A stretch of DNA of 64,000 nt, taken from positions 136,501 to 200,500 of the forward strand of contig NW_026516245.1 of assembly GCF_025602895.1 (NCBI RefSeq). Direction: 5' to 3'. Origin of the DNA: Polychytrium aggregatum (lineage: Eukaryota; Chytridiomycota; Chytridiomycetes; Polychytriales). The notes under the pieces were generated by a model. It had not been told where the DNA came from. It did no database searches and saw nothing but the letters and a program-made list of their open reading frames with translations. A program made the translations under genes and the position numbers. Shown piece after piece: positions 1-23,400 of this stretch; position 1 is the stretch's first letter; each line of letters opens with the position of its first letter.

Positions 1-1035
1 CTCAAGGAACAAGGTGATGACGGCATCAACAACCAGGATCGACTCTGGCGCAGTTGCTTCAAGCTGCGTAGTTCCCTCTTCCAAGAGCGGGTCAGGGACA
101 AGAAGCTGTTCAACTACGAGATCAGCACCGATGGCATTGGATGCACCATCGGTCTCGTCAAGTTTGTGCGTCGAACCGATCACACCGAGACCATCGAGCC
201 TCCTCCGACTGCCGAGCAGCGTATCCAGGCCCACATTGGCGACCCAGACCCCAACCGCACCACTTGGATTGGCATCGATCCTGGAGTCGGCTCCATCTTC
301 ACGGCGGTCATCCAAGCACCGGGCCACCAAGACGAGGTGGTCTCGTTCTCCAATGGCCACTACCAGCACATGTGTGGCCATACGTCCAACACAAGGTGGC
401 ACAACACCATGAAGTATCGACTCGACATCGAGACCTGGATGTCGACCACTCCCTCGCCCAAGGTGTCGTCCTCGGAGGCTTTCAAGGTCCATCTCACCCA
501 TGTCCTGCGACCGGAGCTGCGAGTGCAGCTCGACTTCCACCTTGGCAAGAAGGCCCGTCACCATCGATTCACAGGCCGCAGGAGACGCCAAGTGGCCGTC
601 GACAGGATGTGCAAGGCCGTCCTGAAGCACGCCCCGATACGGACCGATGTGGTGATCGCCTTTGGCAATGCGTCATGGCGGCAGGGCAAGGGCTATGCAT
701 CCAGCCCGAGGAGGCAGCGGTTTGCTCAGTACTTTGAGCAATTCGAGCACCACCGACGCCGTCCCAATCACCCTCATGGAAGCGTCAAGGTAGTCTCGAC
801 GAACGAGTTCAACACCTCGCAAGTGTGCTCCAAGTGCCTGGAGCCAGTTCGGTTGGAAGGACTCGATGCGCCCAGTGTTGCGAATTCCCACTTTGTCAGG
901 AGCTGCAAGAATCCCAGCTGCCGGACAGTGTGGAATCGCGACGTCAATGCGGCGCGCAACATGATCACAGTATGCAGGTCGATTGTGGAGATCGGAGAGC
1001 GACCGGTGGTCTTCACTCGGAGGCTGCCAAAGTGA
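1..1035 (+). CDS. Fanzor (TnpB-like RNA-guided nuclease), C-terminal 344 residues, open at the 5' edge
   Basis: Frame 1 is open from base 1 to a TGA at 1033-1035, so the start lies outside the window. The product matches residues 447-790 of the full-length copy with only scattered substitutions. It contains the RuvC-I block with Asp in GIDPGVGSIFTA, the conserved FGNASW block, a C-terminal zinc ribbon (CSKC then CKNPSC) and the RuvC-III Asp in NRDVNAARN. No frameshift or stop appears in the visible part, so this copy could still encode an active nuclease. In the known Fanzor/TnpB family these proteins cut DNA at sites chosen by an RNA transcribed from the element's end. Activity here is inferred from motifs only. 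A methionine at 166 is in frame, but the homology extends upstream of it. Confidence 0.85.
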   Translation, partial: LKEQGDDGINNQDRLWRSCFKLRSSLFQERVRDKKLFNYEISTDGIGCTIGLVKFVRRTDHTETIEPPPTAEQRIQAHIGDPDPNRTTWIGIDPGVGSIFTAVIQAPGHQDEVVSFSNGHYQHMCGHTSNTRWHNTMKYRLDIETWMSTTPSPKVSSSEAFKVHLTHVLRPELRVQLDFHLGKKARHHRFTGRRRRQVAVDRMCKAVLKHAPIRTDVVIAFGNASWRQGKGYASSPRRQRFAQYFEQFEHHRRRPNHPHGSVKVVSTNEFNTSQVCSKCLEPVRLEGLDAPSVANSHFVRSCKNPSCRTVWNRDVNAARNMITVCRSIVEIGERPVVFTRRLPK

Positions 1036-1132
1036 TCTGTTTTATTTCTTGTGGCTTTGCTTGACGCATGCCATCACATACTACATGTTCATGGAAACGG
1101 CTATATTGTCCCGTTTTTTTCTGAATAAAGTG
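1036..1132 (+). ncRNA. Candidate omega-RNA scaffold / 3' tail of the Fanzor element
   Basis: These 97 bases run from the Fanzor stop to the element terminus. They match the corresponding tail of the full copy (13572-13669) except for a patch of about five bases, and their distal part recurs in two short derivatives. In Fanzor and TnpB systems the guide-RNA scaffold is encoded at this place, next to or overlapping the 3' end of the gene. If that holds here, the guide would be read from the flank starting at 1133. The terminus also holds AATAAA, a likely polyadenylation signal. Assignment as RNA is inference. Confidence 0.4.
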
Positions 1133-11228: not shown

Positions 11229-13489
11229 ATGTCGTTCCCGAACGAAAAGTCGCAGGAGCCCCAAGGAGACAAGGCAGACAAACTTGCGCTTCCCACGATC
11301 CCTGACGGCGATGTTGGGCCGGCTTTACCAACCGAGGACGCCCATGCCCAAGAGGACGCCCATGCCCAAAACACCAACCCGAGGCCCTCAAACGTCATGG
11401 AGCAGACGCAGCGACGGTCCTTTCTCAGCTGCCTGTACTTTGTGGTCAGATACACACTCGCAACGTCGCTGATGGTGTCGATCGCCGCCGGCCTGATCGT
11501 CGCCGGGCTCTATACTCTGGAGCGGCAGCTTTCGGCCGGCCCGCTACCATTTTCCGGGATCCTGGTGTTCCGAGTCCATCTGCTGCTCTACTTCAGCATG
11601 GCAATGGGGACATATCTCAAACTAGGGCCCCTCCACAACATCCATCTCCTGCGGGCATCGATGGCGGTCGAGGTCATGATTGTCGCCGCGATCGTCGGCG
11701 CCCTTGGCTTGACGGTCGAAACGGCACTCATCATCCGCCCTCTGGTTCCCGTGGGGCGATGTATCGTCGAGGCTTTTATTATATTCCGGAAGGACTGGAA
11801 GTCGCTTGTCGGCTGGATCGTGGTGTGGACCATGCTCGCCATCAACATCGAGGTGGCTGCCTATGCGATTCTCGGCTGCTTCTACTTGTTTCAGCAGTTC
11901 AAGAACAGTCCCCAGATCATCAATGTGCTGCTCATTGGGCTGGTCTATCCCCTGATTGCGTGGTTCCAAGCGCTCTTGGGAATCATTCTGTACGAGAAAA
12001 TGCCAGGGTCAAATCGAGTGCCCAAGGTCTGCGAGGACGAAGACTTTCGAGGCAGCCGGCAGAGCTTCATCTACACAGACTCGGGTATGCGCTCCGGGCA
12101 TAGACAGCGGGCCGTCTACTCGCCGGTACAGTTAGATTGAGTGCCAATTAAGACGCTGGCTGACTTTCTGCGTTCAATCGCCATCATCCTTCCGTGCCTG
12201 TCGGTACCCATCGGACGGATGGGCGACGATGAACTCTGCTGCAACCGGCCATCGAACGGGTGCACCCACAGAAACCCTAAAGCGAGGTACATACTTTACT
12301 TTGCTCGCACTTTCAACGTGGCTCGAAGCAATGCATGGGAATGCAGCCAAAACGAGACCGAGCCAAGGCATAGCTAACAAACGGCTATGCTCCCGCTGGG
12401 TACGCATCAGGCTCGGTGCTGGTTCTCACCACCATCAGCCCGTTCATCAAGCTGATTTCCATGGAGTGGACGACGGCGTCGTGGATAATATCGCTGTTCG
12501 GCATGGGCGCGAGCCGGGTCCTGATTTCGCTTGCACAATACGCCCTCTTCCGGCTCTACCTTGCGAACGAGATGGAGCAACTCGCTGCGAATCGCAACCA
12601 GAGGCCGACCAGGACCGGAAACCAAACCAACAAGAGCAAGGACCTCGAAGCCAATGCCAATGCCAATCCCAATGCCCATGCCAACGCCAGCACCGACCCC
12701 AACGCCGATGCCGATGCCGCTGCCAGCGTCAACGTCCATTTCGATTCTAAGATGACAGGTGGCTCGACCAGCCAGGCGGGCGTTGTTTCCGGCAGATGCG
12801 CCGCCATGCTGAGCCAACCGCCCAGCAGGAGCTTCAAGGAGGCAGCAGAGGCATCCACAAAATCCAGAGGGGCACAAAGCAGACCCGATCAACGCTCTAT
12901 GAATGAATTGGCTATAGAGGACACCACAATCGAAAGCCGGAAGAGCACTGCGTCGTCGCGGACCGGAATTTCGACCATCCGATATTCGATCGCAAGAGGA
13001 GGAGAGCGGCTGGTCAGCCAGGCTAAGGCGGCCATGGTGAAGACCGTCAGTCGAGATGGGACCAGTGAAAGCGAGGGCATCACGATCTACATGAGAGTGT
13101 CGATCCGGGCTGTGCAGGAAGTGGATGCGTGCATCATCGAGCAGAGCTCGATCTTGTGCAGCATCTTTGGCGTTGCAGCAGTCGGGCTGATTCCGAGCCT
13201 CAACTTTACCGACAACAACTCGGGCTGGGGGCCGTTCCTGCTGGATCAGTTTGTGTCCCGGGCTCTTTCGATCATCATCACGGAGATCTTCCTGGGAGCA
13301 GCGATCATGTATGTCAACGAAATGTATGGATTCCGGTATCTCCCGGGGATGGCAACAAGAAAGCGACTCGAGCGGATCGACTATGGAATCATGGTGGCGC
13401 ACGGCATGGGCATCATATGCCTGTGTCTCAAGGCCCAGCAGTTCTGGCAGAGCCTTCTCCAGCAGCCCGACAGGACTTTCGTCAAGTGA
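11229..13489 (+). CDS. Multipass membrane protein of unknown function, two exons
   Basis: Exons 11229-12084 and 12411-13489 join in phase across a GTATGC...CAG intron, giving 644 residues. The N-terminal 70 residues are polar and disordered. Several hydrophobic segments follow (about residues 75-100, 110-130, 140-165, 190-220 and 225-255), with more after the intron and three near the C-terminus (LCSIFGVAAVGLIP, LSIIITEIFLGAAIMYV, IMVAHGMGIICLCL). Between them is a long loop that is Asn/Ala/Asp-rich and low in complexity (12650-12722). The topology resembles an integral membrane protein with the loop on one face. I do not recognise a family. The Fanzor element starts 83 bp after the stop. Confidence 0.7.
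12650..12722 (+). repeat. Coding microsatellite (Asn-Ala / Asp-Ala repeats)
   Basis: An imperfect GCCAATGCCAAT-type repeat encodes NANANPNAHANAS followed by DADA-like residues in the loop of the membrane protein. It stays in frame. Confidence 0.75.
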
Positions 13490-13571
13490 AGCAGGGTGAT
13501 CTGCATAATATATTGGGTACGGTTCGTCGGAGATGGACTCATCGATGCTGTCCACCTGTGAATATATCCTA

Positions 13572-13597
13572 CACTTTATTCAGAAAAAAACGGGACA
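13572..13597. repeat. Terminal inverted repeat, Fanzor side
   Basis: It begins CACTTTATTCAG and continues into AAAAAAACGGGACA. It pairs imperfectly with 17017-17042 in inverted orientation. Read on the minus strand, it also holds AATAAA, which probably ends the Fanzor transcript. Confidence 0.8.
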
Positions 13598-13669
13598 ATA
13601 TAGCCGTTTCCATGAACATGTAGTATGTGCTGTGCTTGCGTCAAGCAAAGCCACAAGAAATAAAACAGA
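13598..13669 (-). ncRNA. Candidate omega-RNA scaffold of the full-length Fanzor element
   Basis: This is the non-coding tail between the Fanzor stop and the terminal repeat. It is almost identical to the tail of the copy at 1036-1132. The block CATACTACATGTTCATGG also survives in both short derivatives, which have lost all or most of the gene. By analogy with known Fanzor/TnpB loci, the scaffold would run through the terminus, with the guide taken from the flank below 13572, read on the minus strand. No transcript evidence is available. Confidence 0.4.
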
Positions 13670-16042
13670 TCACTTTGGCAGCCTCCGAGTGAAGACCGCC
13701 GGTCGCTCTCCGATCTCCACAATCGACCTGCATACTGTGATCATGTTGCGCGCCGCATTGACGTCGCGATTCCACACTGTCCGGCAGCTGGGATTCTTGC
13801 AGCTCCTGACAAAGTGGGAATTCGCAACACTGGGCGCATCGAGTCCTTCCAACCGAACTGGCTCCAGGCACTTGGAGCACAATTGCGAGGTGTTGAACTC
13901 GTTCGTCGAGGCCACCTTGACGCTTCCATGATGGTGATTGGGACGGCGTCGGTGGTGCTCGAATTGCTCAAAGTACTGAGCAAACCGCTGCCTCCTCGGG
14001 CTGGATGCATAGCCCTTGCCCTGTCGCCATGACGCATTGCCAAAGGCGATCACCACATCATTCTCCCTCGGGGCGTGCTTCAGGACGGCCTTGCACATCC
14101 TGTCGACGGCCACTTGGCGCCTCTTGTGGCCCGTGAAGCGATGGTGACGGGCCTTCTTGCCAATGTGGAAGTCGAGCTGCACTCGCAGCTCCGGTCGCAG
14201 GACATGGGTGAGATGGACCTTGAAAGCCTCCGAGGACGACACCTTGGGCGAGGGAGTGGTCGACATCCAGGTCTCGATGCTGAGTCGATACTTCATGATA
14301 TTGTGCCACTCAGTATTGGACGTATGGCCACACATTTGCTGGTAGTGACCATTGGAGAACGAGACCACCTCGTCTTGGTGGCCCGGTGCTTGGATGACCG
14401 CCGTGAAGATGGAGCCGACTCCAGGATCGATGCCAATCCAAGTGGTGCGGTTGGGGTCTGGGTCACCGATGTGGGCCTGGATGCGCTGCTCGGCAGTCGG
14501 AGGAGGCTCGATGGTCTCGGTGTGATCGGTTCGACGCACAAACTTGACGAGACCGATGGTGCATCCAATGCCATCGGTGCTGATCTCGTAGTTGAACAGC
14601 TTGTGATTGATATCTCGGTCACGGAAGAGGGAACTACGCAGCTTGAAGCAACTGCGCCAGAGACGATCCTGGTTGTTGATGCCGTCCTCACCTTGTTCCT
14701 TGAGCATGTCCCAGGTGAGGTCAAGACGATGATCGGTGTCAAGGAGTTGCCGGAGAGTGACCGTATCAATCTTGATGTACTTGGCCTTGGCTGTGCACAG
14801 AGGGACCATCGTGCACACAGCCGGAGGAGTGTCGACAGAGAGCTGCTTGAGAGCCCACTTGATCCTGGATGCCAGCTTGTTGATCTTGGACGTGGTGGTG
14901 CCGAGCTCAGACTTGGCCTTGGTGAACCTCTTGTCGTCGGAGGGAATGCCTTGGGTAGTGAGCTTGTCCAGCTTGGCCTGGCGCTGCAGCTCGGTGACTC
15001 GGAGGGCGGGCATGTCACAGTCGATCCACTTGTGGACATTGTCGACCATCTTGTCCCGGGCGAGGATTCTCACATGGTGTGAGAGGCGATGGAGGGCCCG
15101 GAAGCGGTCCTGGTCGTTGCTGTACCGAAACTCGTCCAGGATGTGGCCAAAGTCTGGATAGAGGAACTCGAGATCGGCCTTGGGTGGAGTCTGCCCTGGT
15201 TTCTCGAAGAGCTCGAGACAGGCCTCGATGGCTTCGTGCTTATGCTTGTTGGCTGGGAAGACGGCAGCGCAGAAGCGGCGAAGGAGTCGCCAGTAGGCCA
15301 GGTTGAGGTGGGTGGTGCAGTTGGTAGCATAGGCATTGACAGCCAGTGTGAGAAGCTGACTGTGAGCACCATCAGGCAGACGAGGGGCCGGAGGCAGGTC
15401 TGCGTGCCGAGTGGTCTGATAGTCGCGAAAGGAAGCGACCAGATGCTCGTTGTATTTCTTGGTGTCCCTGGCCGTCGAGAGGGCACCGGCCTCGACAATC
15501 GTGAAGCACTGGCGGATGAAAGCAGGGGTGGACTTGGAGATGACGGGGATGGGAATATCCTGCTCGATGCACCGGAGGATGTGCAGGTTGAGCAGCCTGG
15601 ATGCCTCGAACTGGATCTGGGTCATGGCCTCGACGGTGGCCTGGATCTTGTCGCGGAGAGCGGGATTGAGACAACAGCCATCCATCGTCTGCTTGAAGCA
15701 GCTGAACTGAGGGGCGGATGACCTTCCATCCACGAGTGGGACGACAGAACTCTTGAGGGGCCGGTATTTGGGACATTTGCTAGTGTTGCAACGTTCGTGA
15801 TCGGTGCCATCGCACTTGGGACATCGCTTGCCGGTACTCGAGGAAGTAGATGGACCAGGCTCGGTGGGATCGACATCCATTGGATCTGCAGAAGCAGTGG
15901 TGGTGAGCGACGGAGCAACAGACGACCAAGCATGCGTGAGATCAGAATACGAACCAGAGACAGGCTCCGACTGTGACTTGGCTTTCTTGGGCCTGGGTGG
16001 CCGAGGCTGGCCATCACCGGTACCCTTACGCTTCGGAGGCAT
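13670..16042 (-). CDS. Fanzor, TnpB-like RNA-guided DNA endonuclease (full length)
   Basis: The gene is an uninterrupted 790-codon frame. The N-terminal 60 residues are basic, with a possible nuclear signal (PPKRKG, PRPKKAK). They are followed by a Cys cluster at about residues 73-90 (CPKCDGTDHERC). Helical middle domains lead to the RuvC-I Asp539 (WIGIDPGVGS), the conserved VVIAFGNASW block, a C-terminal zinc ribbon (CSKC ... CKNPSC) and the RuvC-III Asp760 (NRDVNAARN). I could not place the RuvC-II Glu with confidence. Proteins of this family use an element-encoded RNA to choose the DNA they cut, which probably helps the transposon persist. Lying inside a TA-flanked transposon with matching termini supports the call. 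Sequence, zinc ribbon and context argue against an ordinary OrfB fragment. Nuclease activity is inferred. Confidence 0.92.
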   Translation of the reverse strand: MPPKRKGTGDGQPRPPRPKKAKSQSEPVSGSYSDLTHAWSSVAPSLTTTASADPMDVDPTEPGPSTSSSTGKRCPKCDGTDHERCNTSKCPKYRPLKSSVVPLVDGRSSAPQFSCFKQTMDGCCLNPALRDKIQATVEAMTQIQFEASRLLNLHILRCIEQDIPIPVISKSTPAFIRQCFTIVEAGALSTARDTKKYNEHLVASFRDYQTTRHADLPPAPRLPDGAHSQLLTLAVNAYATNCTTHLNLAYWRLLRRFCAAVFPANKHKHEAIEACLELFEKPGQTPPKADLEFLYPDFGHILDEFRYSNDQDRFRALHRLSHHVRILARDKMVDNVHKWIDCDMPALRVTELQRQAKLDKLTTQGIPSDDKRFTKAKSELGTTTSKINKLASRIKWALKQLSVDTPPAVCTMVPLCTAKAKYIKIDTVTLRQLLDTDHRLDLTWDMLKEQGEDGINNQDRLWRSCFKLRSSLFRDRDINHKLFNYEISTDGIGCTIGLVKFVRRTDHTETIEPPPTAEQRIQAHIGDPDPNRTTWIGIDPGVGSIFTAVIQAPGHQDEVVSFSNGHYQQMCGHTSNTEWHNIMKYRLSIETWMSTTPSPKVSSSEAFKVHLTHVLRPELRVQLDFHIGKKARHHRFTGHKRRQVAVDRMCKAVLKHAPRENDVVIAFGNASWRQGKGYASSPRRQRFAQYFEQFEHHRRRPNHHHGSVKVASTNEFNTSQLCSKCLEPVRLEGLDAPSVANSHFVRSCKNPSCRTVWNRDVNAARNMITVCRSIVEIGERPAVFTRRLPK

Positions 16043-16169
16043 GGGGGCAGAGGGTGCTGGATGTCTGCCAGTGGTACTGGTCAGAGCAGAGACTTCTCTT
16101 TATCGTACAATAGCGCGATGATCAGATCAAGGCGAGATGAGGGAAGAAAGCAGCAGGACAAAGGTGTGG

Positions 16170-16180
16170 CATTTATACCC
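16170..16180 (-). promoter_or_regulatory. TATA-like box upstream of Fanzor
   Basis: The minus strand reads GGGTATAAATGCC about 130 bp before the Fanzor ATG at 16042, inside the element. It would let the nuclease gene be transcribed separately from the transposase. Confidence 0.45.
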
Positions 16181-16294
16181 GAGAGCAGGAGCCCGTCGTT
16201 GCGGGCTGGTTGGGGAAGTGACCCTGTTCAAAAATCGCCGAGAGGTTCAAGCCAGGGATTTGAGCGTGAAAATGGCGGAGTGATTGGAGGGAAC

Positions 16295-16958
16295 TCAACC
16301 CCAAATCGGTGGGGACTCAACCCCAAAGAAGTTCTCGATGGGATTGAAGTCGGGCGAGGCAGGTGGGGTGAAGATCACTGACCATCCTCGGCGCTCGATG
16401 CAGTCCAGGACAGCCATTGTCTTGTGCATGCTGACATTGTCCATCGCAATCACAGAGTCGTCTGAGAAGCACCCTTCGGTGAGTATCCGTAGAGAGGAAA
16501 ATGGATCTCCTGATCCCTGTCTCGTCGACAAAAACGAATCGTCGTGGGTCGATGGAGCGGACCTGGTCCCTGAACTGTGCCACTCGCTCATCCAGTCGCT
16601 TGGACTTGTAGAGGTGTGTTGCCCTCTTGTGTGAGAGACCTGCTCGGTGGATGGCAGTGTGGCAGAGTGAGAGTGATACTTTCCTCTGGAGGATGGACTC
16701 GAGCTTGCATCGCAACACAGGACCAGTCTGGAACGGATCCTGTTCAATCAGGGTGCGAATGACTGGACATGCCTGCTCGAAGAAAGTGGATCTGCGAGCT
16801 GGGACCCGGGATGGGTCATCCAGCTTGCATCCTCGGTGCCATCGATGGATGGTGCTCTTGGATACACTGAATATGGAGGCGACCTTACGCAGGCTATGGA
16901 TGAGGGCGTAGCATCGCAATGCGGCGGTGCGAAAGTCGGATGTGTGGCGAATGGTCAT
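16295..16958 (-). pseudogene. Tc1/mariner DD34E transposase, frameshifted and internally deleted
   Basis: The frame opening at 16958 begins with a helix-turn-helix region (VASIFSVSKSTIHRWHRG) and reaches the first catalytic Asp in FVFVDETG (codon 16526-16524). The second Asp (VIAMDNVSMHKT, codon 16441-16439) and the Glu (PDFNPIEN, codon 16336-16334) lie in a different frame. They have 34 residues between them, the DD34E signature. The first two Asp codons are only 85 bases apart, whereas active Tc1-like enzymes have roughly 85-95 residues between them. A large internal deletion with frameshift has therefore removed part of the catalytic core. The 3' end is also truncated, with a short duplicated ACTCAACCCC sequence near 16300-16325. 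This copy cannot encode a working transposase. Confidence 0.88.
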
Positions 16959-17016
16959 GGCCAGCGTGCGATAACATTGGGTAACAAAATATTCGATGAA
17001 TGGTCAAAAACCCGGG

Positions 17017-17042
17017 TGTCCCGTTTTTTATTGGATTGCCTG
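17017..17042. repeat. Terminal inverted repeat, transposase side
   Basis: The plus strand reads TGTCCCGTTTTTTATTGG and ends GATTGCCTG, followed by TA. It is the imperfect inverse of 13572-13597. Confidence 0.8.
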
Positions 17043-17044
17043 TA

Positions 17045-18490
17045 AGACGACGGGATACTGATATCATGTTCCCAGCTGGTGGAATACTGGTGGGATACTG
17101 GAGTGATACTGGAGTGTGGTGCATGTATTCGACTTTCAAGTACTCCGTGGTTTCTGGATATCAAGATGGTCGGGTGTCCGTTTCGCTTTGGGTACTTTGC
17201 AGCGATTCCAATCGTCAATCACACATCCGTGCCGCCGACGAGAGAGCCAGAGAGCCTTTGAGCGGTTCTGGCGGCCAGGTCCGCCGTATCCGAGCGATTG
17301 ACCGGGCAATCGACCGGGCAATCAACCAGTGCGAGGGAGGCAATGGCGGGAGTATGCATTCGAGACCGCCGCAGACGGAACATGGTGCGGCATGACGATA
17401 GCCCCGAGCAAGTCGAATAACAATCGATTGCCTTCCCCGACCCGCCCTTTGCCCCATCTCTGATCTCGGCATTCGCATTGCATAACGGCGCACTGCATCA
17501 CGGCGCATCGATCTGCCGCCGTCGGGCCGATTGTTGCGTTTGCCGCCGTCCCCCTTGGCCTGCTCAATCTGCGCTGCTCTCGTCATCCTGCTCTCCGCGC
17601 TCGCTCCTGGCCCGGCACTCGCCGCCTTTCCCCAGGGACATTCGCTGACGCATCGGTGCATCGTCATCCAGTCGGCTCTGCGACCCACGGCCCCCGATCA
17701 TATATCCGCGCTGGGCACCCCGGTTGTGATCTCATTCCCCCCTCCCTGCCTCTCGACCGGGAGATCATCCCTTCCGCCTCAGCTGAAACGATCGCATCTG
17801 CACCGTGGCCGGCAGACCCGTCATTGCGGTCCAGCAGCAGCAGCAGCTCCTGCTTCACTGTTTTCGCAAACTGCTTCGTATCTCGCCGATCTGCTTCGTT
17901 TCTCGCCGAACCTGCCTTCGCGTCTTGCGTCCTGTCTTGACCCAAGCACATTCTGGCACTTTCCGGCACCCTCCCTTCGCCTGATCACATCCCCCATCTC
18001 GACCCACTACCCTTACGGATTCCATCGCCGGGACCTGATTCTGCTGCCGTTGCGCTGTGCTCCGAAACCGGCCCTGTCGGATCGCTTGCTCTGGCTCTTG
18101 GGGACCGCACATATTTCTTTTTCTTTCCTCTGCCCGCTACTCCATCCAACCACCTGCCCCACACACGCACCGAGAATCGCCAGCGAATGTCGCATCACTG
18201 GATCGGAACTGATCTGGGAAAGGGATTTTCAATCGTTGGTCTGCGCTGCGACTGTTTTGTCTGAGTATCTACTTTGCTTTATCTCTGCAGTTCCTTCTCT
18301 TCCTCCCCCCCCTCCTCATTTCCACCTTCCTTCTACCTTCCTTCTACCTTCCTTCCACCTTCCTGTTCGTACCCTGTCTTCTCCATCTTTCTGGCTCTGT
18401 CGATCCGCGTTCCGTCACAGGAATCCCTCGGCCCTTGTACGAGCGACGGACAGGTCGGTTCACCCGGTTTCGTCGCAACTCTGCTGGAAG
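17045..18490. other. Intergenic and probable long 5' leader of the Ecl1-like gene
   Basis: No supported gene. A short imperfect repeat of GGGATACTGGAGTGATACTG lies at about 17080-17115. A large pyrimidine-rich stretch precedes the next ATG, with a CCTTCCTTCTA-type repeat at 18321-18367. This is typical of fungal promoters and leaders. A long open frame across 17531-18550 has the low-complexity composition expected of chance in such DNA. Confidence 0.5.
18321..18367 (+). repeat. Pyrimidine tandem repeat (CCTTCCTTCTA-like) in a leader region
   Basis: About four imperfect 11-base units lie about 130 bp upstream of the Ecl1-like start codon. Confidence 0.7.
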
Positions 18491-19491
18491 ATGGACTACC
18501 ACATCGGGTGGTGTCTTGTCTGCGAACAGCAGCTCAAGGTAAGCCCGTAGAACCTATGTCCCGTTGCCTTCATGCGAGTTGCCCTGCAAGGGCTTGGGGC
18601 TGGACTCTGTGTCGTCGAGATTACATCTCGATCCAGCAACGGCAACCGCAACCGCAACCACAACCACCGCAATCCCAACCCCAATCCCCAGTTCGCTCAT
18701 CTGTCCTTCCTCTCGACCGCCGTTCCCATCGCCATCGGTCTGTTGTCCTTGCTGCTCGCATCCCTGGATTCGGCCTCAAGCACAACCAGTTCGTCTACTG
18801 CTCCCAGACTTGCCAGCACCGAGACCTCTATGCCGCCGCCCTGCTGCCCCCAGGCCCGGTGATGCGGCCGCGTGCCTTGTCGTCCAATGCCGCATATCCA
18901 ACAGCCCTTCCTTTCCATGAGCCCCAGAAGGCCATCAAAAGGGCCGATGCTGTTCATATCCCACGCCAGTCCAGCGATCGCTGTGATGTCGATGCCGCGC
19001 TGGCCGACCACCCACATCGCAGACCAGCCCAGCAACCAAACCATGGCCTGTCCGATGATCTCCCGCTCGGTTCTCTCATGGGCGAATCCGCCCCAATCGG
19101 CTCTGTCCACCGACTTCCTTCGCTCTCCATCCATCCGACTCCCCCCCAGATGCAAGAAACTTGGCCCAGCAGCCCGCCGTCATCCTACAAGGGCATGCAA
19201 GAGGCTCCCTGGCTGGGCGACCTCGCGACCAAGCTCTCGCTGACACCCACGGCGTCCTCGACCTTCTTCCTCTCGCAGTCGCACTTCAAACGAAGCTTCA
19301 GCATGTACGATCTCGGGAGCATCTGCACGCTCCCGGTCACGGACCACTGCTTGAAGCGCTACGATTCCCGTCCCCTCAAGCGACACTACCATGCCAACTC
19401 CAGGTCCGAGCTGGACCTCGCTAAGCGCAAGTTTATTCCGTTTTCCAAGCTCGTCACCGACGACCGACTCTGTGTGGGCGGTTGGAGCTAG
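18491..19491 (+). CDS. Ecl1-like zinc-binding protein (life-span regulatory family), two exons
   Basis: Exon 1 (18491-18538, 16 codons) encodes MDYHIGWCLVCEQQLK and ends at a GTAAGC donor. Exon 2 (18781-19491) begins HNQFVYCSQTCQHRD. Joined, they give the pattern C-x2-C-x12-C-x3-C with YCS, as in the small fungal Ecl1 zinc-binding family linked to chronological lifespan, nutrient stress and zinc response. The rest (252 residues in total) is Ser/Pro-rich and poorly conserved, ending with a basic stretch (KRKFIPFSKLV). The acceptor at 18780 was chosen because it keeps the frame and the Cys spacing; earlier acceptors are possible. The functional assignment rests on the short Cys motif only. Confidence 0.6.
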
Positions 19492-19662
19492 CTAGTGGTT
19501 TGTGCTGTCTGCCTGTCGAGCAAGTCCCCCCCCCATTAGTTGGCAATCTTTGTTATCCGCCGAATCAGCCCTCGGTCGCCGGCCTATTCGACCACCATTA
19601 GAGCTATTCCCCTCTGCTGCCTGGAGTTCCTCCGCTGCTATGAGCTCAAGCCACCTCCGTCA

Positions 19663-19699
<37 letters not shown>

Positions 19700-20452
19700 C
19701 GGGCCTCGTTTCAAACAGCCCACTCTCGTTTCTTTCTTTCTTTTTGCTTCTCATTTTGGACGCTCAGCAATCCGCAACTGCGTCACCCACGAGGACAAGC
19801 AACCGCCTCGATTTGCTTTCAATTTTGTAATCGGCCTGTGTGTGTGGGGGGGAGCGTTTTTTGGGATATTGTTCTCCACCTGTTTTGATCCATAGATTCA
19901 TTTTTTGGGGGAGGGGGTTGAAGGCGAATGCGTCGGGCATGCCAATAGCGATGAAAAACCCTGATCCAGATGAGAGCCCGCGCCAATCAACAGCCAACAA
20001 TCAGCCCAAAGCGGCGAGACAGAGGCGGGTTTGGATGTGAGCCGGCTGGCATGGCGGGCTCCGGGCCTTGGGCGGGAGGGCGGTCTGTTGGGATCCGAAT
20101 CGGGGCTGGCAGCTGGGAGACTGACTTGACAGGCCAGCGTCGTCGTCGTGGGGGAGTGCGGAGAAAGTGCATCGTCTGCGACTGCTCTCCCAAGAACAGA
20201 GCGCACCGCCGCTGTCTCTCGATTGCAGCGGAGCACGCCAGCCGCAGTTGATCCAGAGAGCTCAAAACTCGGACACGATCGACTGCCGATGGATTTCGGA
20301 GCAGCCGCTGCGAAGAAAGGGTCCGCCGGATTGCAGGACCGATGCGAAATCAATGTTCCGGTCGATGACGCAGCCAAGGAGACAGCGAGGGGAGGGCAGG
20401 AAGAGGTGTGAGTAGCCGAGACATATGGGCAGGTCGCCGAACGAGCCGTCCA
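19492..20452. other. Convergent intergenic region, Ecl1-like gene and RAD50
   Basis: It contains a CAGC microsatellite (19663-19697), T-rich and G-rich tracts near 19840-19920, and no gene I can support. Confidence 0.5.
19663..19697. repeat. CAGC microsatellite
   Basis: About eight perfect tandem CAGC/CCAG units. Confidence 0.9.
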
Positions 20453-23400
20453 TCAGCAGGACATTGTGCTATGAACCACAGCACTACACCAGTGCGGCAC
20501 AAATACATACTCGCTGTTCTTCAGCACCCGCCAGTAATGGTCGCAGAACTCGGATTTGCCCAGCAGCTGCATAAACTCCTCGTCATGGGTGATGATGATC
20601 AGCTGGAAGTTGGACTGGAGCCTCCGCATCTTGATGATGCTGTTTCAGCCCGAGATTGCAACCGCAGCGATGAAAAGTACGCGTGAGAACAGGAATGCTG
20701 GCCCCACGCTTCAACGAGTGCGGCTCTGGTCCACGACGCTGAGCGGGCTTGGATCGTGCGCCCCTGAAATCGCACGGCAAATGCCGCAGAGCATGAGCTT
20801 CCTCACCGCTACGCTCGGCTCCTTGGCACCCCGCCCCAGACCTACTTGACCAGGCTCTCTGCCAGGCTCTCGATGTTGGCGCGATCGAGGTTCGTCGTGG
20901 GTTCGTCCAGGGCAAGAATGCCGCAGTTCAGGCAGAACGACTCGGCCAAAGCCAGTCGGATGATCAAGGATGCCAGGACCTTCTGTCCGGCGCTGCACCG
21001 TCCTCGCATATCGAGTTCGATGTCGCTCTTGATCATGACAACCTGGACAAGAAGTGCCGCGTCAGCACATGGATGCCAAGCTTGTCACTCACGGATCGCT
21101 GGCTCGACAATGACGGGAACGACCGCAAGAGGAGCACTGGCAGCTTACTCTGTAGTTATAGGACTGGTTGCCTCGTATGCCTTCGTTGTCAGAGCGGATC
21201 TCAATCGTGTCGATGTCTGTTGCAAACACTTGTCGCTCAGCAAGCTGCGATGCGCATGCAACACTCCCACCACATCAAGGCAGCATAACAGTGCGGTACC
21301 ACACCGCCATAGCACCGCGGGATACTCACCCGCCCCTTGGTAGGTATTGGTCCAGAGCTCACGGATCGTCTTGTTGATCTCCTCCATCTTCATTGAATGA
21401 TACTTCATGATTGCGCTGCACAGCGATACCATCCGGAGCCGAGTTGAGCAATTAGCCGATACGATCGACACGTCCATAGCCACTCCATCCGCTTGTAGCG
21501 GCGCCGCCAGTTCGCACTGATCTGATAAACCAGCGTACGGAAGCCCTCGTGCTGCACACCCCAGATCGGTTACCTGTCCAATGCCTTTGCGTACTTTTCC
21601 AGATCGTAGTAGGCCAGCTCTTCGGTCTATGGGCAGAGTAATAAGCAATCAGACACATGGCGAGCAGATACGAGGATGCGCGTCCGAGCATGGAGAAGCA
21701 GATCCGACCTTGAGCTTGATTGTGCCCTCGTGGAACTCTTCGTCAATGTTCTTGTAGTCGCTGTCAAGCTGCTCGAGAAGATGCCGCTCTTGTTCCTCCA
21801 GTTGCTTCAGCTCGCCAAGAAGCGTGGCTCGCTAGTGTTGGTGGCGACAAGAACGGCGAGTGTAGCGACGGCAGTAATGGTCGTCGGCGATAGTAAGAAT
21901 CAAAATAACCTCGACCGAGTAGCACAGCGGATGTCCCCTGTTCCTACAATGGGCTCAACCACCTATCCATCCACTTTACCTCGCTGATCAGTTGATCGTG
22001 CTTCTTCTTCACCCGCGCGTAATCCGCGGCAAACTCGGCGCCTTGCTGTCGCTGCAGCTCGGCCTTTGCAGTGTCCAGACTCCTGCTGATCTGCTCGATC
22101 TTCCGCTCCATCTGGCGGTACCGCAGGTTGTCATCGATCCCGCGCTGTAGAACCTGGATCTGGCTGTTGACCTTGAGGACCGACTCGATCTCGTTGCTCA
22201 GGCCAGCGATTTGCGTCTCGATGTTCCGCTTCTGGGTTTCTACGGCTCGGACTTCCTTGATGCACCGCTGGAGCCGCTCGTCGCCCCGGGAATTGACGTA
22301 TCTAGCTCGCAACCCACAAAAGACCACCATTAGCCGCGGCTGGCGCACATCAGGGCCCGGCTTCCAACCCCAAAATCGGGCCTGGTATACAGCTGTGCCC
22401 TGTCGGTATGCGCGTCGATGTCCATACCGTTGGATATCCCGCTCGATGGCTTGGATTTGGTTGACAGCGTCACGGAGCTGCGCAAGGTCCTTGACAAGCA
22501 CGCTCTTTTTGGCCTCCAAGTCACTCCGGAAGCTTGAGAGCTCCTTCTCAGCCGCGCGGATCTGGAGCGAACTGCTGCTGATCTCGCGCTCGGCGTTCTA
22601 GAAACACCATCCCGATGCCGATGTAGCAGATGAGGCTGTTAGATGTGTATCCTGCGCGTAGTGCTGCCTTTTGCACGACATCGCTACGTTGCCATCACTA
22701 CGCTGTCAGCACTACATTGCCATCACTACTTGCCATCACTACGCTGGTACCGTACCTCAATTTCACGATTAAAAGCACTCGTCTCCTTCTGAAGCTCGTC
22801 CATAGTCTTGATGAGTTGAGCCTTCTCTGCATCTTTCAGCTGCTCCGCATTGAGCCGCTCGCGCAGATTGCGGATATGGACTTCTTTCGACTGGATTTCT
22901 CGCTGCTTAGCGCGAATGTCCCCGTTGGCTTGTTCGAGGCTCTTGCGAAGTTGCTTGCTGCAGGTTGCGGAAATGCGCATTAGAGCAGGTGGCTCTCGAA
23001 TAACTCGGCAGCTGGCTGATGGGCACATACTGCAGACGCGGCCGCATAGGAAAAAACACAATACCATCGCGACGAGCACTCCTCTTGCTCCTGCTGGAGC
23101 TCGTCCATGGTCTTCCCACTACCACCAGCCTCAAGGTCCTTGGAGAGTCGATCGACCTCCTGGCCCAGAGCAGCAAGTTCGCTCTTGAGCCGCGTGTGCT
23201 CTCCGATTTTCGTCTTCAGGAGTATCAGCTGGTCGTGCTCGACACCGAGGAGCCCCAAATTGCCGAGAACCTGACAAAGTATGTGGCATGAGCAGATCGC
23301 CAATCTTATATCCTCCCTTTCCAGGCTCCGTGGCCAGACGCCAAGGACTGGCAGAGAGGTCGCACCGATCTGCAGCACACCTCCATCTCTTTGTGCACAA

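Follow-up and report, generated by a model that had tools for sequence, protein, structure and literature searches.

Left-end scars in a Fanzor1-bearing DD34E transposon family of Polychytrium aggregatum suggest RNA-guided homing

The TnpB nucleases of bacterial IS200/IS605 elements are said to secure the 'cut-and-copy' retention of those elements, a finding attributed to Meers in 2023. Here we describe a Tc1/mariner-type DD34E transposon with a Fanzor1 nuclease, located in a stretch of 64,000 nucleotides of the chytrid Polychytrium aggregatum (contig NW_026516245.1, positions 136,501 to 200,500; hereafter the window, on the contig we label C357). The Fanzor1 cargo of this high-copy transposon probably serves the family as an RNA-guided homing enzyme, judging from comparison of its copies, whose left ends carry scars that match the uninterrupted target while their right ends stay clean. 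With slightly less assurance, we lean towards the broader reading that the natural work of a eukaryotic Fanzor is RNA-guided homing, for a DDE transposon and, in trans, for its Fanzor-less short copies, and that past cuts can be read from target-copied bases at the motif-side terminus as a 'Fanzor footprint'.

The published systems are compared here through selected sections of the cited papers. Spu-1 of Spizellomyces punctatus, the element of SpuFz1, likewise places a Fanzor1 in an element with terminal inverted repeats (TIRs) and TA duplications (PMC3627910, PMC10432273). Two conserved bases outside its left repeat belong to the CATA motif that SpuFz1 needs (PMC10432273), and the family described here has a predicted motif, TTA, in the same place beyond the left TIR. 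The right-end guide RNA of Spu-1 is matched by a predicted one here, and in both cases Fanzor-less copies, called 'ghosts' in Spu-1, keep the ends. Spu-1 differs in having no transposase between its repeats, where the present family has a DD34E transposase. It also differs in copy structure, with 42 loci (19 full-length) and 134 ghosts, whereas here 28 of 33 listed paired ends enclose an element of Fanzor length. Target-copied scars are not mentioned for Spu-1 in those sections.

Fanzor1 proteins with Mariner transposases have been known since 2013 (PMC3627910). PGv-1, PUl-1 and PUl-4, from viruses and other hosts, share with the present family a Mariner transposase or Mariner-type TIRs and TA duplications; PGv-1 and three relatives are single-copy, unlike this family, and the consulted part of that paper describes no analysis of flanking motifs or scars (PMC3627910). 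The element itself thus belongs to a known kind, and the footprint is what is new. The mechanism that we propose is closest to that of TnpB in cut-and-copy retention and plasmid drive, which shares a site-recording guide, an adjacent motif and a break at the empty site that is repaired from the filled one (PMC11870625). That system is bacterial and works with a 'peel-and-paste' transposase (PMC11870625); in the present case the element is a DDE transposon of a eukaryote, it duplicates TA, and homing is a proposal. Saito et al. regarded the biological role of Fanzor cutting as unknown and a TnpB-like role as possible (PMC10432273). We found no report of natural Fanzor homing or of such scars in literature screened by titles and abstract openings, with most subscription journals outside its scope. 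If our reading is true, a directional repair scar would give natural evidence on a genome scale for Fanzor as a driver of the retention or spread of eukaryotic transposons, as TnpB is in bacteria. The 'Fanzor footprint' could then be scored in any genome, and the role of Fanzor would become testable from assemblies alone, with the motif (TTA) and a guide predicted for each copy. It would also have a bearing on the lasting abundance of an element whose transposases are often defective.

The transposase and Fanzor frames lie in tandem on the minus strand. The left end is the transposase side, at the high coordinate, and the right end is the Fanzor side, at the low coordinate. The original prediction of a complete TA-flanked transposon proved exact to the base, with TA on both sides. 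The TIRs were predicted to be imperfect, and the 26-bp termini (CACTTTATTCAGAAAAAAACGGGACA and CAGGCAATCCAATAAAAAACGGGACA) do agree at just 19 of 26 positions. Relatives with a full transposase are about 3740 bp long, against 3471 bp for the window copy. Its parts are as follows.

13572..17042, minus strand: whole Fanzor-bearing Tc1/mariner-type transposon, 3471 bp, delimited by its termini, TA flanks and other copies
13570..13571, no strand: TA target-site duplication, Fanzor (right) end
17043..17044, no strand: TA target-site duplication, transposase (left) end
17043..17045, minus strand: predicted target-adjacent motif, 5'-TTA in the minus-strand reading, from the 190 exact left ends, of 198 in the genome, that read TTA
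13572..13597, no strand: right terminal inverted repeat (Fanzor end)
17017..17042, no strand: left terminal inverted repeat (transposase end), without a scar in this copy
13670..16042, minus strand: Fanzor1 open frame, 790 residues, with TDG at 489-491, DPG at 539-541, E715, a zinc ribbon and NRD at 758-760
16317..16958, minus strand: transposase remnant, 213-residue frame with the helix-turn-helix (HTH) and D1 (DET)
16295..16747, minus strand: transposase remnant in another frame, with D2 and E of the DDE_3 domain
13572..13737, minus strand: predicted scaffold region of the guide RNA (omega RNA or reRNA), the last 166 nucleotides (nt) of the element, overlapping the last ~22 Fanzor codons
13550..13569, minus strand: predicted guide source of this copy, the flank after TA, by analogy with Spu-1 (PMC10432273) and from target-copied scars at other sites

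The family comprises about 200 copies or more. Counting related families, its terminal core, AAAAAACGGGACA, has 376 + 367 occurrences in a genome of 64.7 Mb, and this is not chance because the reversed pattern occurs only 2 + 0 times. Exact ends number 211 on the right and 198 on the left, some of them on duplicate contigs. Further copies with matching termini, which the original prediction proposed to look for, are therefore plentiful. When the genome was searched with the Fanzor protein, 57 copies out of 1268 first-look candidates were scored and listed; apart from the window copy itself these are 92-95% identical, and 48 of the 57 are free of stops. The 30 copies that were read (L009-L038) were the best by Fanzor score, which biases them towards an intact Fanzor. 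The spacing of paired termini gives a less biased view: among the first 100 listed places there are 33 convergent core pairs, of which 28 span 3.3-3.74 kb and five are short (208 bp to 1.1 kb). No close relative turned up in the viral contigs searched.

Three features that the earlier description lacked, namely a TTA flank bias, a right-end RNA region and the left-end scars, say most about function. The first is strongly one-sided. Exact left ends follow TTA in 190 cases and A, C or G before TA in eight (n = 198). At 25 non-duplicate loci among the copies read, the base outside the TA is T on the left in 24, and the equivalent base on the right (A) is found in six. Not counted are L037, L038 and L027, which share their sites with L025, L033 and L026, and L016 and L019, for which no element was measured; the left end of L026 is shifted in the count by one base. 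Symmetric insertion at TA would not be expected to give such a bias, and the CATA of Spu-1 offers a parallel, so TTA is the predicted target-adjacent motif of the nuclease.

Diverged relatives share the AAAAAACGGGACA core and have other termini. By eye, 7 of 14 of their left ends stand behind TTA (the set is L042, L043, L046, L052, L059, L060, L073, L074, L075, L091, L094, L108, L110 and L112), a much smaller share than in the main family. At L018:3971-4190 a short element from a related family abuts the right-hand TA of a Fanzor element, and the 10-bp repeat TATTCTTCGC stands on either side of it.

Some left ends are scarred. The left terminus normally begins CAGGC, and we searched for TTA followed by any base other than C, four further bases, RATCCAAT and the core. 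The pattern listed 24 left ends, which by their flanks are 15 independent sites, nine of them on two contigs, and the right flank was read at all 15. When the changed bases are set in register against the uninterrupted target, 23 of 25 equal the target base, and every changed base does so at 13 of the 15 sites. Shuffling the targets among sites gave a mean of 8.7 matches and a maximum of 21 in 100,000 trials. The eight sites with two or three changes match at 17 of 18 bases. Examples, given as left end and target, are AGAGCGATCC and AGAGCACCCT in L026 and L027, GTGGCAATCC and GTGGCAAATC in L116, TAGTCAATCC and TAGTCAATCG in L122 and L125, and TGGTCAATCC and TGGTCCGCCG in L143. Target bases within the left terminus imply that the left flank was once continuous with the sequence of the empty site before it was joined to the element.

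This listing covers changed first bases, and the left search took in changed second bases too. A changed second base was listed at 17 places, with right flanks read for those on C46, C377 and C399 and for L002 and L032. Outside the pattern, L114, L151 (C377) and L152/L153 (C399) match their targets and L150 (C46) does not. Target-derived bases also occur in L065, L049, L018 and a short element in L003, some of them with the register shifted or within related families. In a positional sample, where both ends of 29 elements were read, TTA stands at 27 of the left flanks (the exceptions are L103 and L049). The left end is clearly derived from the target in four elements, in register in L114 and L116 and shifted in L065 and L049; it is weakly so in two (L054, L070) and altered in another way in two (L002, L095). 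The right end is TACAC in all 29.

A left-terminus variant, CGGGCG, is found at 13 places (L002 and L032, for example) and looks inherited, as in a subfamily. These copies were kept out of the scar count; the changed base equals the target in L032 and differs from it in L002.

The right ends differ sharply from the left. Genome-wide, and within the one A-run length covered, no right end has a changed first base beside 211 exact ones. Twenty right ends have other changes in their first five bases, with single substitutions at positions 3-5 among the matches listed. For 24 of 198 on the left against 0 of 211 on the right, Fisher's test gives p = 7e-8, on counts that include sites assembled on two contigs. 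Random breaks between filled and empty chromosomes should scar both ends, whereas a cut on the guide side of TTA would scar only the left.

A guide RNA that crosses the right end of the element is predicted. The short main-family copies read keep ~160 nt or more of the right end and ~80 nt or more of the left. Synonymous diversity in Fanzor is 0.008 at codons 721-760 and 0.033 at codons 761-790 (L014, L016, L030 and L034 set aside), and the low value at 721-760 is as for a frame overlapped by an RNA. The 131 nt at 13570-13700 (minus strand) fold with z = -3.52, and in some folds the predicted outer stem takes in the TA, like the reRNAs of Fanzor1 (PMC10711439). Scars are also present on Fanzor-less short copies, and retention of at least 160 nt of the right end in scarred copies of this kind is expected if the guide works with Fanzor in trans.

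We propose the following model. Intact copies would supply the transposase, and elements would be moved in and out at TA. A guide RNA would start in the right end, taking in the end of the Fanzor frame, the terminal repeat and the TA, and would extend into the right flank, giving each copy the address of its own site. On an element-free chromosome TTA directly adjoins the guide-matching sequence, and Fanzor would cut within that sequence, downstream of TTA. Repair from a filled allele or sister would copy the element back in. The left broken end would keep a short tail of target sequence, and if this were incompletely trimmed before priming on the left terminus of the template, a few target bases would replace the first bases of the element. 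The right broken end would hold no left-flank bases, and the right end would be copied through and stay clean. The cutting, repair and trimming steps are inferred.

Several observations weigh against this model. Seven of the 15 sites differ at a single base, and although six of these match, each is weak alone. L134/L135 match at 0 of 1 base and L121/L070 at 1 of 2; the scar of L138/L142 matches its target, but the right flank is CA in place of TA, and the shifted scar of L049 lies behind CTA rather than TTA. The register is weak support, being fixed by a search pattern that admits changes at five bases only, and two of the four clear scars in the positional sample are in register. The right-end patterns were limited to one A-run length, and right-end bases could be more constrained for mobility. 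Known scars are short (~8 bases in L018), whereas the cut of SpuFz1 falls 16-21 nt away from the motif (PMC10432273), which obliges the model to assume strong trimming. At the nine scar sites found on two contigs both assembled copies have the identical scar, and no donor-recipient pair was seen. An empty allele was sought at 16 sites with joined flanks of 70 + 70 bp; among the 40 of 309 candidates scored, no match crossed the junction. That search turned up second flank copies at seven sites, and the five read with both flanks were all filled. As for the guide, many shuffled sequences fold as well as the last 70-84 nt taken by themselves (z -1.1 and -1.3), and synonymous diversity is also low elsewhere in the frame, at codons 41-80 (0.020) and 121-160 (0.029). 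Finally, TTA could also be a preference of the transposase, and TTA alone cannot tell transposase from nuclease.

This last point leads to the main rival of the homing model, which we hold to be unlikely but worth serious consideration: Fanzor would be a passenger, TTA would reflect the transposase, and the left scars would come from unequal treatment of the two ends by that enzyme. A break at the left end might be repaired off the empty allele, or the left end might be mis-cut with a longer target duplication. The Fanzor-less short copies L007 and L055 follow TTA as well, and short copies bear scars, as a passenger would allow. The termini share only 19 of 26 bases and so could be processed unequally, and the shifted register of half the clear scars also suits this explanation. 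It requires a fault confined to the left end, however, and it leaves unexplained the purifying selection on Fanzor in copies with a broken transposase.

The frame at 13670-16042 is open for all 790 codons, as predicted, and matches the Pfam family Cas12f1-like_TNB above the cut-off (E = 6.6e-9), a domain of TnpB/Cas12f type. It agrees with the published Fanzor1 pattern, D-X(125,275)-[TS][TS]-XX-C4 zinc finger-X(5,50)-RD (PMC3627910), through D539, T718, S719, C722, C725, C748, C753, R759 and D760. It also shows the traits described in PMC10711439, namely the DPG of RuvC-I (D539-P-G) and the catalytic glutamate six residues ahead of the first CxxC (E715-FNTSQL-C722). The exact regular expression of that paper is unmatched, as the D-to-E spacing and the zinc loop are longer and the second knuckle is CX4C (PMC10711439). 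TDG (489-491), a motif that PMC10711439 places in the WED domain, is found in 30 of 30 copies. The element provides the eukaryotic non-IS607 transposon setting, with a DDE transposase, TIRs and TA, and the earlier assignment of Fanzor to a Tc1/mariner-type element is supported. A phmmer search of Fanzor against PDB found no Fanzor chain and gave only matches with E > 0.4; the best of these, Csm5, looks like chance.

Fanzor is uninterrupted in 28 of the 30 copies read, with D539 retained in all 30 and E715 and D760 in 29 each. Mean pairwise nonsynonymous divergence (dN) is 0.028 and synonymous divergence (dS) 0.092, a ratio of 0.30. The corresponding diversity ratio (pN/pS) is 0.39 for variants seen in a single copy and 0.15-0.25 for shared variants, excluding codons with more than one differing base. 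The dN/dS of Fanzor is 0.299 in eight copies with a 310-residue transposase frame and 0.323 in 19 copies lacking it (L014, L030 and L034 set aside). Purifying selection thus acts on Fanzor in copies with a full transposase frame and in those without. The outcomes that the original prediction named as damaging to it, a lack of copies, loss of RuvC residues or a neutral Ka/Ks, were not what we found: the residues are retained on alignment and Ka/Ks across copies is non-neutral at ~0.30.

Set against copy L021, the transposase of the window copy lacks three stretches, of 142, 105 and 21 nt, and is broken by these deletions, as had been stated. What is left of its frames matches DDE_3 (E = 5.2e-10), with HTH_23 below the cut-off, and D2 and E are lost from the frame that carries D1. 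The DD34E spacing was verified in two full-length copies, L011 and L021, with 34 residues from D2 to E. TIRs and TA duplications are present as for Tc1/mariner; of 28 elements, L010 and L020 have TT or TG for the right-hand TA. Across the 28 aligned elements, all deletions of at least 5 nt against L021 fall within its first 1150 nt, the transposase half, and the 105-nt deletion is common to 10 copies. Eight of the 30 copies (L010, L011, L018, L020, L021, L024, L026 and L027) keep the 310-residue frame, with a pN/pS of 0.205 among them. Over the first 160 codons, compared in 25 copies with small indels left unrealigned, the ratio is 0.50 and may be too high. The transposase of intact copies is therefore also under selection and not generally dead. 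Decay, as originally claimed, holds for particular copies, that of the window included, and does not hold for the family as a whole. As to the suggestion that the nuclease is selected on its own, selection on Fanzor is borne out, and intact copies show selection on their transposase as well. The alternative that the window copy is young is unsupported, with a mean dS between copies of ~0.09, unless the copies are assembly mosaics.

Ordinary allelic recombination between filled and empty chromosomes after random breaks, with no role for Fanzor, is very improbable. Any such event could provide the bases of the empty allele that make up the scars, but both ends should then be scarred alike, and the count is 24 left against 0 right.

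More improbable still is an assembly artefact, in which false duplicate contigs and mis-corrected repeats would create the mosaic look. Nine same-site pairs bear on it. Eight share both flanks (L025/L037, L033/L038, L026/L027, L017/L154, L023/L155, L011/L158, L034/L156 and L029/L157), and the ninth, L015/L159, shares the left flank only; flank alignments are imperfect for L034/L156, L029/L157 and L015/L159. In the three pairs with long flanks, the flanks differ by at most 3 bases in ~1.6 kb and the elements by 2.0, 3.3 and 4.3%. In the other six, compared over 70 bp of flank, the elements differ by 2.3-4.9%. That all nine should differ inside is suspiciously general, and L033/L038 rank about 270th of 378 pairs in divergence. 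L026/L027 have no substitution in the first 1187 nt and then 75. Such interior divergence could be intense gene conversion among copies or mis-correction by the assembly, and since mis-corrected repeats could yield it, we do not use it as evidence of homing. An artefact would hardly produce target-derived bases at one end only, and on two contigs at nine of 15 sites. Some sites differ more grossly between contigs. L130 and L137 are one site with one scar, with a right end at full-length distance on one contig and a copy of ~307 bp on the other; L121 and L069/L070 likewise share site and scar, with full-length spacing against a copy of ~1.1 kb.

L014 (C334) and L106/L107 (C23) have the right flank in common but not the left, a pattern that ectopic recombination between elements or a chimeric contig would give. 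No second assembled copy of the window flank 17043-22000 was found.

That Fanzor is kept for a host service or for defence against other elements, with homing incidental, is also very improbable: a dN/dS of ~0.3 with and without a full transposase would fit it, but many near-identical copies borne by elements and scars on the guide side indicate use by the element, not one domesticated gene.

A second copy, L022, is truncated by the edge of the window.

1..1132, minus strand: right-end part of copy L022, with its TA at 1133-1134

The neighbouring window genes have matches to F-box, LRR, C2H2, SIS and tRNA methyltransferase families. A plus-strand frame of 342 residues at 12461-13489, with no Pfam match above the cut-off, ends ~80 bp before the element.

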